Source of the DNA: an uncultured Pelagibacteraceae bacterium
GTDB taxonomy: Bacteria > Pseudomonadota > Alphaproteobacteria > Pelagibacterales > Pelagibacteraceae
Direction of reading: 5' to 3'
Assembly (NCBI GenBank): GCA_902611465.1
Contig: CACLZS010000003.1
Coordinates: forward strand, 28,835-92,834
DNA: 64,000 bases
Shown here piece after piece: positions 19,697 through 24,566 of this stretch. Within the stretch, counting starts at the first letter, position 1. Every line of letters starts with the position of its first letter. A program made the position numbers and the translations under genes. The notes under the pieces were generated by a model. It saw nothing but the letters and a program-made list of their open reading frames with translations, was not told the DNA's origin and did not search any database.

Positions 19697-20761
19697 TCAA
19701 ATTTTTGGCTCTTGTTGTGTCATGCAATGAATGGCTCCAAAACCCCAAATTAAATCACTACAATCAACAGGAACAACTTTTCTATTTGTAAAAAATTTTC
19801 TAAAAATTTTTATTACCTTTTTGTCTTCTTTCACATTAAATACTGGAACCAAGACTGTTTTATTACTTATGAAAAAATTTAAATAACTTGCTGGGACACG
19901 AGTTTTGTCTATGACAACTGGGCTTGGCATAGGAATCTTTATAATTGTAAATTTTTTCCCATTTTCATCGTAACTTTTACTTAATATTTTTAAATTTTCT
20001 TTAAGAGCTTTATAATTTTTATCTGATCTATTATTTTCTACAGCTATCATAATCGTACTTTTTGAAACAAATCTTGCAATATCATCAATATGACCGTGTG
20101 TGTCATCTCCAACAATTCCTTTATTAAGCCAAATAAAATTTTTTGCATTTAAATATTTTGAAAATAGATTTTCATAATCAATTTTTTTGAATCCTTTATT
20201 TCTCTCTTGTTTTCTACTTAATAAGCACTCCTTTGTAAGTAATATGGAGCCTGATCCATTATTGTCAAATGCACCTCCTTCCATCACTACTCTTACAAAC
20301 TTTTTTGAATTTACTTTTTTAGGCAGAATACTTTCAATATTTAAGTACCTACTAATATAATTATTGATTTTGTTATCATTTCCGAAATTTTTATATTTTG
20401 ACCAGGCATTAAATTTAAAATCAAGCATGGTCTTTTTTCGATTTTTCTTGTTGACTAAAAATATTGGTCCAGAATCTCTAAGCCAAAGTCTGTCTGTCTT
20501 AAGTTTATGAAATTTAATTTTAGAAATATTACAACCTATTTTTTTTAAATGTATTCTTGTGGTATCAATACTTTTGTTATTATTGACTAATAAATCTATT
20601 CTTTGATCTTTTGTTAAATATTTTATTATTTTTCCAACTACATTTGGAATTTTTTCAAATAATCCAGGCCAATCATTTTTATTATGTGGCCACGCAATCC
20701 AAACTGATTTTTGAGGCTCCCATTCTGCTGGGATTCTAAATTCATCTATTTTTTTACTCAT
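19697..20761 (-). CDS. aguA: Agmatine deiminase (peptidylarginine deiminase family)
   Basis: PAEWEPQKSVWIAWPHN, WLRDSGPIF, MEGGAFDNNGSGSILLTKECLL, HIDDIARF, GAIHCMTQQEP. Confidence 0.95.
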   Translation of the reverse strand: MSKKIDEFRIPAEWEPQKSVWIAWPHNKNDWPGLFEKIPNVVGKIIKYLTKDQRIDLLVNNNKSIDTTRIHLKKIGCNISKIKFHKLKTDRLWLRDSGPIFLVNKKNRKKTMLDFKFNAWSKYKNFGNDNKINNYISRYLNIESILPKKVNSKKFVRVVMEGGAFDNNGSGSILLTKECLLSRKQERNKGFKKIDYENLFSKYLNAKNFIWLNKGIVGDDTHGHIDDIARFVSKSTIMIAVENNRSDKNYKALKENLKILSKSYDENGKKFTIIKIPMPSPVVIDKTRVPASYLNFFISNKTVLVPVFNVKEDKKVIKIFRKFFTNRKVVPVDCSDLIWGFGAIHCMTQQEPKI

Positions 20762-21636
20762 CTTCAGGATTTTTGAGAATATCTTTATAAAATTCAGTTC
20801 TTCTATCTCTTAAAAAAGGCCAGTGTTGTCTAGCAGTGTCTATTTTTTTATAATCAACTTCACAAACTAAAATATCTTCTTTCTTATTTCCTGCTTTTGC
20901 AATTATTTTACCACTAGGGTCTATCACCATTGAATTACCCCAAAATTCAATTTTTTTCCTACCCTTCGTTTCTACCCCAACTCTATTTATAGCAGCCACA
21001 TAAGTTCCATTAGCAATAGCATGAGATTTTTGCATTGTAATCCAAGACTCTAATTGAGATTTACCAAATTTCTTTTTTTTCTTTTGGGTGCCATCCAATA
21101 GCAGTAGGATAAAAAATAATTTGAGCTCCTTTTAAAGCTGTTAATCTTGCTGCTTCCGGGAACCATTGATCCCAACATATAAGAGGACCTATCTTGCCAA
21201 ATTTAGTTTTCACACTTTTGAAACCTAGGTCTCCAGGACTGAAATAAAATTTTTCATAATACCCTGGGTCATCAGGTATGTGCATCTTGCGATATTTAGA
21301 TAGAATATTACCTTTTTCATTAATAATGATACTAGTGTTATGATAAAATCCAGATGTTTTTTTTTCAAACATCGTAATATTCAATACGACACCAAGCTCC
21401 TTTGCTAAATCACAAAAAATTCTAGAGGTTGTTCCTGGAATTTTTTCTGCCAATTTAAAGTTTGAATGACTTTCTGTTTGGCAAAAATAATTAGACAAAA
21501 ACAGCTCTGGAAGACATATTATCTTTGCCTTTTTTCTTGCAGCTTTTTTAATGTTTTTTATAGCTAAATCAATATTAGATTGAATTGTACCTAAAGATTT
21601 ACTTTGTATTAAACCGATTTTGATTTTTTTGATCAT
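20754..21636 (-). pseudogene. aguB: N-carbamoylputrescine amidase, split by a +1 insertion-type frameshift in an A8 tract
   Basis: ORFs 21061..21636 (N-term ...FYPTAIGWHPKEKKE) and 20754..21098 (C-term FGKSQLESWITMQKSHAIANGTYVAAINRVG) together make one nitrilase-fold amidase; the frame changes at T8 on + (21073-21080). Removing one A restores a continuous ORF. Confidence 0.88.
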
Positions 21637-21639
21637 TAA

Positions 21640-22680
21640 TCAAAATATCTTGGAAAAATTTTTTCTCTCTCTATTTTTCCATTCACCTTTATGATAGGCG
21701 TCACTTGCTATTAAGGGTAATACACTTGTTGCTTCTGCAAAAACCATTTGCTCTTTGGTTATATCTACTTTGCCCCATGAGCTTGCTTCTTTTAATGTTG
21801 AGCTGCTGCAAGCACCATCTCTAGAGTCAGCAACTGTTATTTGAATAGCATACTTATGCATATCTACATCTTTACCTAAAAGTTCAGCACATATAACAGT
21901 ATCTTGAATAAAATTTTTCGGCACACCTCCTCCAATCATAAAAAGACCTGATCCTTTTGATTTAATTTTAATTTCGGTTAATTCTCTAAACTCTCGGATT
22001 GTGTCGATTGTGATGTGATTTTTTGGATTTCTTTCCTGATGCATTACAAGTCCAAATCCAGCACTTGAGTCAGTAAACGCTGGACAGAAAATTGGAACGT
22101 CGTTATCATAGGCAACTTCTATCAATGAATCTTTTTTCTTTGCGTTATTTTTAAGATATTTACCAATCTCTTTTATAAATTCTCTTGATGTATAACTTTT
22201 GGGCTCTAATTGATCTGCAATTTCTCCAATAGTTTTATCGCACATCTGAAGCTCTTCTTCATCAATGTAAGTATCATATATTCTATCAATGTAGTTATTT
22301 CTTAACTCTGTATCATCTTGATATTGGGATCCCTGATAATGTTTAAAACCAAGTGCTTCAAAGAAATCCATATCAATAATTGAAGCCCCAGTTGCGACTA
22401 TTGCATCTACCATATTATATTTAACTAAATCTCTATAAATATGCATACATCCTGCAGCAGATGTTGATCCTGCGAGTGTTAAAAATATTGTACAATCTTT
22501 ATCTTTTATCATCTCATTATAAATATTTGCAGCATTTGCAGTCTCTCTTGAAACGAAAGACATTTTTTCCATTGAAGAAACTATTTTTCTAGCATCGAAA
22601 GAAGTTATATCAATATGCTCTACTTCTTTACTAAGTAAATCACTTTTTCTATTATTTGATTGGTTTTTATTATCTGACAT
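21640..22680 (-). CDS. Deoxyhypusine synthase-like protein (bacterial DHS family)
   Basis: FLTLAGSTSAAGCMHIYRDLV, VDAIVATGASIIDMDFFEALG, GLFMIGGGVPKNFIQDTV, and EASSWGKV containing the DHS catalytic-lysine motif. Confidence 0.9.
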   Translation of the reverse strand: MSDNKNQSNNRKSDLLSKEVEHIDITSFDARKIVSSMEKMSFVSRETANAANIYNEMIKDKDCTIFLTLAGSTSAAGCMHIYRDLVKYNMVDAIVATGASIIDMDFFEALGFKHYQGSQYQDDTELRNNYIDRIYDTYIDEEELQMCDKTIGEIADQLEPKSYTSREFIKEIGKYLKNNAKKKDSLIEVAYDNDVPIFCPAFTDSSAGFGLVMHQERNPKNHITIDTIREFRELTEIKIKSKGSGLFMIGGGVPKNFIQDTVICAELLGKDVDMHKYAIQITVADSRDGACSSSTLKEASSWGKVDITKEQMVFAEATSVLPLIASDAYHKGEWKNRERKNFSKIF

Positions 22681-23858
22681 TAAGCAACAAGAAACTCTTT
22701 ATTTGCTTCTTTGTCATACATCGTCATGATTGGACTATCTTCAACTTCATAAATTTCATCAGAGTAAAATCCATTAAAATTAGTTCTAAAAGTTAATCCA
22801 TACGCTCCAAGCTGCCCTAACTCTATATAATCATTTTCTTTTATATTATTTGGTAAAATAAAAGGACCTTTCATATAATCCATGCTATCGCAAGTTGGGC
22901 CATAGAAATCGAAAGATGTTAATTTTTTGGAGATTACTCTTCCATCAGTTATCATTTTTGATGGGTAAACAATATTGGGTACACCTGCGTCAAACAAAGT
23001 TCCATACGTCCCATCATTTATATAAAGTTTCTGTTTTTTTCTTAAATCAACTCTTACAATTGTTGAGCCACTTTCTGCAACAATAGCTCTTCCAGGTTCA
23101 CAAATAATTTCTGGAAGCTTATCCAATTTTAAATCACTTAAACCTTTTTTAATTTCTTTAAAATAAGCATCTAATGATTGAGGAATAAGATCAGGGTAAA
23201 TAGTAGGAAAGCCACCACCAACGTTAATCACATCAGGTATAATTTTAGTTTTTTTAATTATATTATTGATTTCAAATATTCCTTTTGAATAAGATATTGG
23301 GTGCATACATTGTGAGCCAACATGAAAACTAAGTCCAATTTTTTTAGAATATTGTTTTGTTAATCTAAGTAGTCCAGCTGCTTCATTATTAATAGCTCCA
23401 AATTTTTTTGATAAATCAATCTCTGCATGCTCATTAGACACAGAAACTCTAACAAATAATTCTAAGTCTTTAGCGTAATTTGTACTTTCTAAAATTTTTA
23501 TTAATTCATCTTTAGTATCTAAAGAAAAGGTCTTAACATTATATTTAAAATATGCTTCTTTAATACTCTCTCTGCTTTTGACTGTATGCATATAAGAACA
23601 ATTCGCATCTGAACTTATTTTCCTTATAACCTCTATTTCTCTGATAGATGCTACGTCAAAATGGTTAATTCCACTCTCAACAATAGTTTTAAGAACTACT
23701 GGATGAGGGTTGGTTTTCAACGCATAAAGTATTTTTCCTGGGAAATTTTTTTGAAAGTATTTAGAAGCCAATTTGATTGACTCTTTTCTAATACAATAAA
23801 CAGGTCTTGTCGGCCTCAGTTGATTAACTAATTCTTCAACTGACTTAAATTTTTGCAT
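22680..23858 (-). CDS. Ornithine (or lysine/ornithine) decarboxylase, fold III PLP enzyme
   Basis: YALKTNPHPVVLKTI PLP-lysine region, SFHVGSQC, INVGGGFPTIYP, ICEPGRAIVAESG, YGPTCDSMDYM. Confidence 0.92.
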   Translation of the reverse strand: MQKFKSVEELVNQLRPTRPVYCIRKESIKLASKYFQKNFPGKILYALKTNPHPVVLKTIVESGINHFDVASIREIEVIRKISSDANCSYMHTVKSRESIKEAYFKYNVKTFSLDTKDELIKILESTNYAKDLELFVRVSVSNEHAEIDLSKKFGAINNEAAGLLRLTKQYSKKIGLSFHVGSQCMHPISYSKGIFEINNIIKKTKIIPDVINVGGGFPTIYPDLIPQSLDAYFKEIKKGLSDLKLDKLPEIICEPGRAIVAESGSTIVRVDLRKKQKLYINDGTYGTLFDAGVPNIVYPSKMITDGRVISKKLTSFDFYGPTCDSMDYMKGPFILPNNIKENDYIELGQLGAYGLTFRTNFNGFYSDEIYEVEDSPIMTMYDKEANKEFLVA

Positions 23859-23883
23859 ATATGCACCTCTAAAAAAAATTTAC

Positions 23884-23912
23884 AAAAAAAACCTGCATAT
23901 CACGTATGCAAG
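23884..23912 (-). terminator. Rho-independent terminator/attenuator in the 5' leader of the decarboxylase gene
   Basis: Minus strand: CTTGCATA CGTGA TATGCAGG TTTTTTTT (8-bp stem including two wobble-type ends, 5-nt loop, T8), located 25-54 nt upstream of the start codon. Confidence 0.75.
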
Positions 23913-24002
23913 TTTCATAAATGCAGCATTTAGGGGAAATATTTAATAATGTAAAGTAAATAATGCTATTGAAATATTAAAATTTACTTCCATATAACGG
24001 CT

Positions 24003-24566
24003 ATGATCAATCAACCAACACTTCAAAAATTAAGTGATTTTGAGGATAAATCGCTTTTGATAGTAGACGATGACAATCCATTTAGACAAAGATTGGCTAG
24101 AGCTATGGAGAAAAAAGGATTTACAGTTACACAAGCTGAGAGTGTAAAAATGGGTATTGATACCGTAAAATCCCAAAATCCAGCATTTGCAGTTGTCGAT
24201 CTTAGATTAAATGATGGAAATGGTCTAGAGGTAGTTAAGGAAATTCAAAAGGGAAATCTTAAAAGCAGAATTATTATGTTAACTGGATATGGTAATATCC
24301 CTACGGCAGTTGCTGCAATTAAAGAAGGTGCAATTGATTATATTGCTAAGCCTGCAGATGCAGATGATGTTGAAAAAGCACTTTTAGCTGATCCAAATCA
24401 AAAACCAGCCCCTCCTGAAAACCCAATGTCAGCGGATAGAGTAAAATGGGAGCACATACACAGAGTTTTTGAGTTATGTAACAGAAATGTCTCAGAAACT
24501 GCAAGAAGACTAAAGATGCATAGAAGAACTCTTCAAAGAATACTGTCTAAAAGATCTCCTAGATAA
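24003..24566 (+). CDS. Response regulator of the RegA/ActR/PrrA family
   Basis: Receiver domain (LLIVDDDNPFRQRLARAMEKKGF, VVDLRLNDGNGLEVV, MLTGYGNIPTAVAAIKEGAIDYIAKPAD) plus Fis-like HTH (NRNVSETARRLKMHRRTLQRILSKRSPR). Confidence 0.93.
   Translation: MINQPTLQKLSDFEDKSLLIVDDDNPFRQRLARAMEKKGFTVTQAESVKMGIDTVKSQNPAFAVVDLRLNDGNGLEVVKEIQKGNLKSRIIMLTGYGNIPTAVAAIKEGAIDYIAKPADADDVEKALLADPNQKPAPPENPMSADRVKWEHIHRVFELCNRNVSETARRLKMHRRTLQRILSKRSPR

Follow-up and report, generated by a model that had tools for sequence, protein, structure and literature searches.

The window, a 64-kb stretch (64,000 nucleotides) of DNA from an uncultured SAR11 bacterium of the Pelagibacteraceae, carries on its minus strand a gene for a lysine/ornithine-decarboxylase-like PLP enzyme (positions 22680-23858; PF02784/PF00278) whose nearest solved structure is 2plj (E 2e-38). 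This gene heads a polyamine cluster that continues with a deoxyhypusine-synthase-like polyamine enzyme (21640-22680, minus strand), AguB and AguA. The synthase-like protein scores above the cut-off of NF002699, the model for 1,9-bis(guanidino)-5-aza-nonane synthase, and does not pass that of deoxyhypusine synthase. Given the adjoining AguA and AguB, the substrate of the pathway may be either ornithine or arginine/agmatine. In the gene for AguB (N-carbamoylputrescine amidase; 20754-21636), a frameshift at a run of A8 interrupts the coding sequence. Its N- and C-terminal parts share one frame in all 48 relatives holding both, so that the frameshift probably stems from faulty assembly or amplification, or else from a recent mutation. 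An intergenic gap of 144 bp separates the decarboxylase from a divergent response regulator gene of the RegA/ActR/PrrA type (24003-24566, plus strand; NF033791). The decarboxylase is present in 13 of the 14 Pelagibacteraceae genera sampled. Among the 190 loci compared, the regulator diverges from the decarboxylase in 188 and the synthase lies 3' of the decarboxylase in 186; hence, the hairpin described below cannot serve as the terminator of an upstream gene or of any other gene.

The leader quoted in the preliminary description corresponds, letter for letter, to positions 23936-23856 of the minus strand. The hairpin and T8 run noted there are real. The hairpin (H1, 23916-23888, minus strand) has 12 pairs, including an AAA/UUU base, and a 5-nt loop. 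It abuts a first U8 tract (23891-23884), the first U's of which pair with the AAA. There follow a GUAAA spacer (23883-23879), a second U8 tract (23878-23871) and, immediately 3' of the latter, the Shine-Dalgarno sequence AGAGG (23870-23866), 7 nt before the ATG. The second U-tract had been missed in the preliminary description, as had the conserved -35 and -10 elements (see below). The comparison covered 98 distinct leaders of the Pelagibacter type, all from genus g1 except one from g14. All 98 keep the order hairpin, U7-9, [GA]U(U)AAA, U7-9, Shine-Dalgarno, with a stem of 8-13 bp running straight into the first tract, as in an intrinsic terminator, and the second tract just 5' of the Shine-Dalgarno sequence, as in an rnd-type enhancer. 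Under a Markov model, a leader has a chance of about 0.19 of containing two tracts of T7 or longer; among 72 genes with a visible Shine-Dalgarno sequence, one other has a T7 near it. In each of 13 genomes searched, the double U-tract with Shine-Dalgarno sequence occurs only at the decarboxylase locus, and the idea of a general SAR11 translation enhancer was rejected for this reason. An Hfq-bound U-tract RNA was likewise rejected, since Hfq (PF17209) was found in none of six SAR11 genomes while control matches were obtained in Caulobacter and E. coli.

Conservation of the hairpin was assessed by permuting its arms between sequence clusters and comparing folding energies. Native hairpins from the 98 leaders average -7.5 kcal/mol, against -2.7 kcal/mol after arm swapping; the z value is -10.3 with 32 clusters, -6.4 with 12 and -3.3 with 5, clustering lessening the problem that these permutations lack a tree model. 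The signal persists within clade A (z -3.9 to -6.0), whose stems are of the GCATA type, and within clade B, a large Pelagibacter clade with A-U stems (z -6.0 to -9.3). Nearly all inner positions of H1 vary in pair type, complementarity being kept while the sequence changes completely. In a fixed-structure count on 23 sequences, 90.9% of paired cells were complementary, versus 84.8 in shuffled sets, and no shuffle reached the covariation score. Within the stems, G·U was counted in 23 cases and A·C in only 3. Tolerance of G·U but not of A·C indicates that selection acts on RNA of the minus strand, that is, on the decarboxylase transcript. Two further helices did not withstand the same scrutiny. 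H0, a 5'-end/spacer helix predicted by folding the window, was unsupported (P 0.5-0.8). H2, flanking the Shine-Dalgarno sequence, has visible pairs (GUGU/ACAC in genera g5 and g7; GUUAAA/UUUAA in some Pelagibacter leaders) and was rejected as it showed no covariation support (P 0.09-0.5). In nearly all g5 and g7 leaders (L116-L121 and L193-L211) the Shine-Dalgarno sequence is flanked by UGUGU...ACACA, which resembles a hairpin with the Shine-Dalgarno sequence in its loop and shows no covariation beyond sequence conservation.

Leaders from sister genera retain part of this design. In g5, g7, g9 and g12 the U-tracts are kept and the first tract forms the 5' arm of a hairpin, pairing with a downstream A-tract; g15 keeps a 5' hairpin without the two long U-tracts. 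Pooling these five genera reveals covariation in the hairpin (z -9.2 with 27 clusters and -3.9 with 6). Genera g8 and g10 are without the two-tract design. Two leaders, L103 and L112, belong to decarboxylase genes close to those of Pelagibacter; leader and promoter resemble those of genus g6 and lack the hairpin-U8 design. The leader may have undergone recombination.

Comparison of the leaders also revealed a promoter. A TTTACA box (23955-23950, minus strand) is followed, 17 bp further on, by TAAATG (23932-23927). In 149 distinct leaders from 13 genera, TTTACA occurs in 133 and TTGACA, found in some sister-genus genomes, in 2; TTTAC[ACT] or TTGACA is present in 148. The distance to the second, TA-rich box (TAAATG, TAATTG or TAAACG, for example) is nearly always 16-17 bp. 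Although TAAATG is a poor match to TATAAT, and a consensus promoter scan does not flag it, the interchange of TTTACA and TTGACA, together with a 10-fold enrichment of TTGACA-N16-18-TANNNT 5' of SAR11 genes, identifies the two boxes as -35 and -10 elements. From the position of the -10 element, transcription is predicted to start within 23923-23918, some 2-6 nt ahead of the H1 stem. A literature search found no published SAR11 start-site map. In 17 of the 98 leaders, including the window (23932-23916), a near-perfect dyad, ATAAATGCTGCATTTAT, spans the -10 element and may act as an operator in a single clade.

The position of the start bears directly on how the leader might work. The preliminary description had seen it as an attenuator responding to a ligand or to translation, with CTGCAT competing for ATGCAG in the terminator, CCCCTAAA sequestering TTTAGAGG at the ribosome-binding site, and two overlapping mini-ORFs. 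All these elements do occur in the window, and the conserved terminator-like RNA hairpin in this proposal stands; the regulatory elements are not conserved. The CTGCAT/ATGCAG pairing is kept in just 22 of the 98 leaders and the anti-Shine-Dalgarno pairing in 2. The ATG of the 12-codon ORF, at the base of the hairpin, is absent from 55; 40 leaders have a closed ORF from this ATG, and its peptides differ in length and sequence (MKLAY*, MKLA*, MKTA* and others). The 4-codon ORF is found in 21. Moreover, the -10 box overlaps both CCCCTAAA and the ATG of the 4-codon ORF, and CTGCAT (23926-23921) falls after the -10 box, ahead of the predicted start or straddling it. With so short a distance from start to stem, neither an aptamer nor an antiterminator would be transcribed, leaving no possible sensor ahead of the stem. 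No Rfam family, speF included, matched at the gathering threshold in the 64 kb or at E<=10 in positions 23700-24200. A two-state attenuator or riboswitch was rejected on the poor conservation of CTGCAT/ATGCAG and the lack of support for H0 and H2, and a speFL-type leader peptide on the variability of the ORF; ligand- or translation-dependent attenuation is accordingly very improbable.

Terminator likeness deserves more weight. H1 with its T8 is the sole terminator-like site in a 501-base region (0.2 expected). In a background of 464 kb of SAR11 DNA, taken as 20-kb stretches, the decarboxylase leader was the only one of 104 divergent-gene leaders to combine a strong hairpin with at least T7. 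The hairpin of the window (-12.1 kcal/mol, T8) comes close to true SAR11 terminators in this background (-13 to -24 kcal/mol, T8-9), and its terminator score d of 24 approaches theirs (31-65). Together with the strict abutment of stem and U7-9, these features are consistent with weak intrinsic termination without an aptamer: H1 and the first U-tract would end a fraction of transcripts near +36, with read-through governed by general conditions, for instance UTP, Mg2+/polyamines, temperature or polymerase speed. Such a mechanism is quite conceivable, at rather less than an even chance. It does not account for the second U-tract, and no possible antiterminator would be transcribed ahead of the stem. 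Only 58% of Pelagibacter leaders have a score above zero and 42% fail. The score returns -99 whenever the stem cannot fold without its AAA/UUU base, and so penalizes A-U stems heavily. Stems of clade B contain 0-2 G-C pairs (mean -6.4 kcal/mol). Terminator geometry is missing in sister genera, none of whose sampled leaders passes the score.

We slightly favor a leader acting on translation or mRNA stability over weak termination, the two models being close. The second U-tract, which has no role in termination, is as constant as the first; clade B stems still covary despite their few G-C pairs; and sister genera retain the U-tracts along with a 5' hairpin that covaries without having terminator geometry. 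Against this, the invariable abutment of stem and first tract is a terminator requirement, and the window hairpin scores close to true terminators. It seems tentatively the best reading, at somewhat less than an even chance, that the leader is a gene-specific cis-acting RNA whose main role, judged in part by analogy, is post-transcriptional. The hairpin near the 5' end would hold part of the first U8, leaving the second single-stranded directly before the Shine-Dalgarno sequence. Selection would then act mainly on a post-transcriptional role, the stem protecting the mRNA end and presenting the U-tracts, at which ribosomes (S1/30S) may load or translation may be enhanced, much as proposed for the leader of E. 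coli rnd; binding of S1 is suggested by analogy. Translation enhancers rich in U, among them that of rnd, are well documented (PMC7769764). Some premature termination may be added by the stronger hairpin in the clade to which the window belongs. A role at the DNA level, be it as an operator, as a cruciform or within the promoter of the divergent regA gene, might be suspected from the short divergent intergenic region and from the dyad ATAAATGCTGCATTTAT around the -10 box; it is unlikely in view of the complementarity that H1 maintains under complete sequence change and of the substitution of G·U, but not A·C, for its pairs. A further variant, to which we give little credence, is an aptamer-free polyamine sensor, in which polyamine levels would directly shift the folding of a marginally stable 5' hairpin. 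If this were true, the pathway product would set the amount of free U-tract for ribosome loading, or the level of termination.

SAR11 bacteria are very abundant in the ocean, and their genomes are stripped of most regulation. A study of polyamine use notes that carbon oxidation functions in these cells are often not controlled at the level of transcription, and it observed no rise in their polyamine enzymes under nitrogen limitation (PMC8437039). The SAR11 decarboxylase mRNA appears to begin with a small hairpin and two U runs. This leader is conserved, covaries on the transcript strand, holds a constant position and is unique in each genome searched. It appears neither in Rfam nor in a published survey of structured RNAs in SAR11 (PMC2704228). 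A covarying RNA present genus-wide at one polyamine-synthesis gene offers a testable case of post-initiation control in SAR11.

Several known systems invite comparison. Like the speF RNA motif, the element precedes an ODC-type gene of Alphaproteobacteria; speF is a long structured RNA, however, whereas the SAR11 leader spans about 60 nt and does not match speF at any reported level. The window shares with speFL a small ORF before an ODC gene, but the SAR11 ORF is not conserved and appears to encode no arrest peptide. Polyamine-linked leaders of enterobacteria contain an arresting ORF (speFL), and a similar mechanism was suggested for mdtU (PMC7815308). Attenuators of biosynthetic operons that rely on intrinsic terminators also place a hairpin followed directly by U7-9 before a biosynthetic gene; the transcribed SAR11 leader differs from them in having no aptamer, antiterminator or leader peptide, and many of its homologs are too weak. 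Stabilizing stem-loops at mRNA 5' ends, of which ompA is an example, are formed within a few nt of the 5' end, as predicted for H1; this likeness is one of position, and in SAR11 the stem is linked to U-tracts. The E. coli rnd gene (RNase D), according to Zhang and Deutscher, reportedly has a short leader in which a hairpin resembling a terminator precedes a U8 tract that acts in translation and is near the Shine-Dalgarno sequence, and the SAR11 leader likewise places U8 after a terminator-like hairpin and close to the Shine-Dalgarno sequence. The genes are unrelated, and the SAR11 leader carries two U-tracts, for which an enhancer role is proposed by analogy with rnd.
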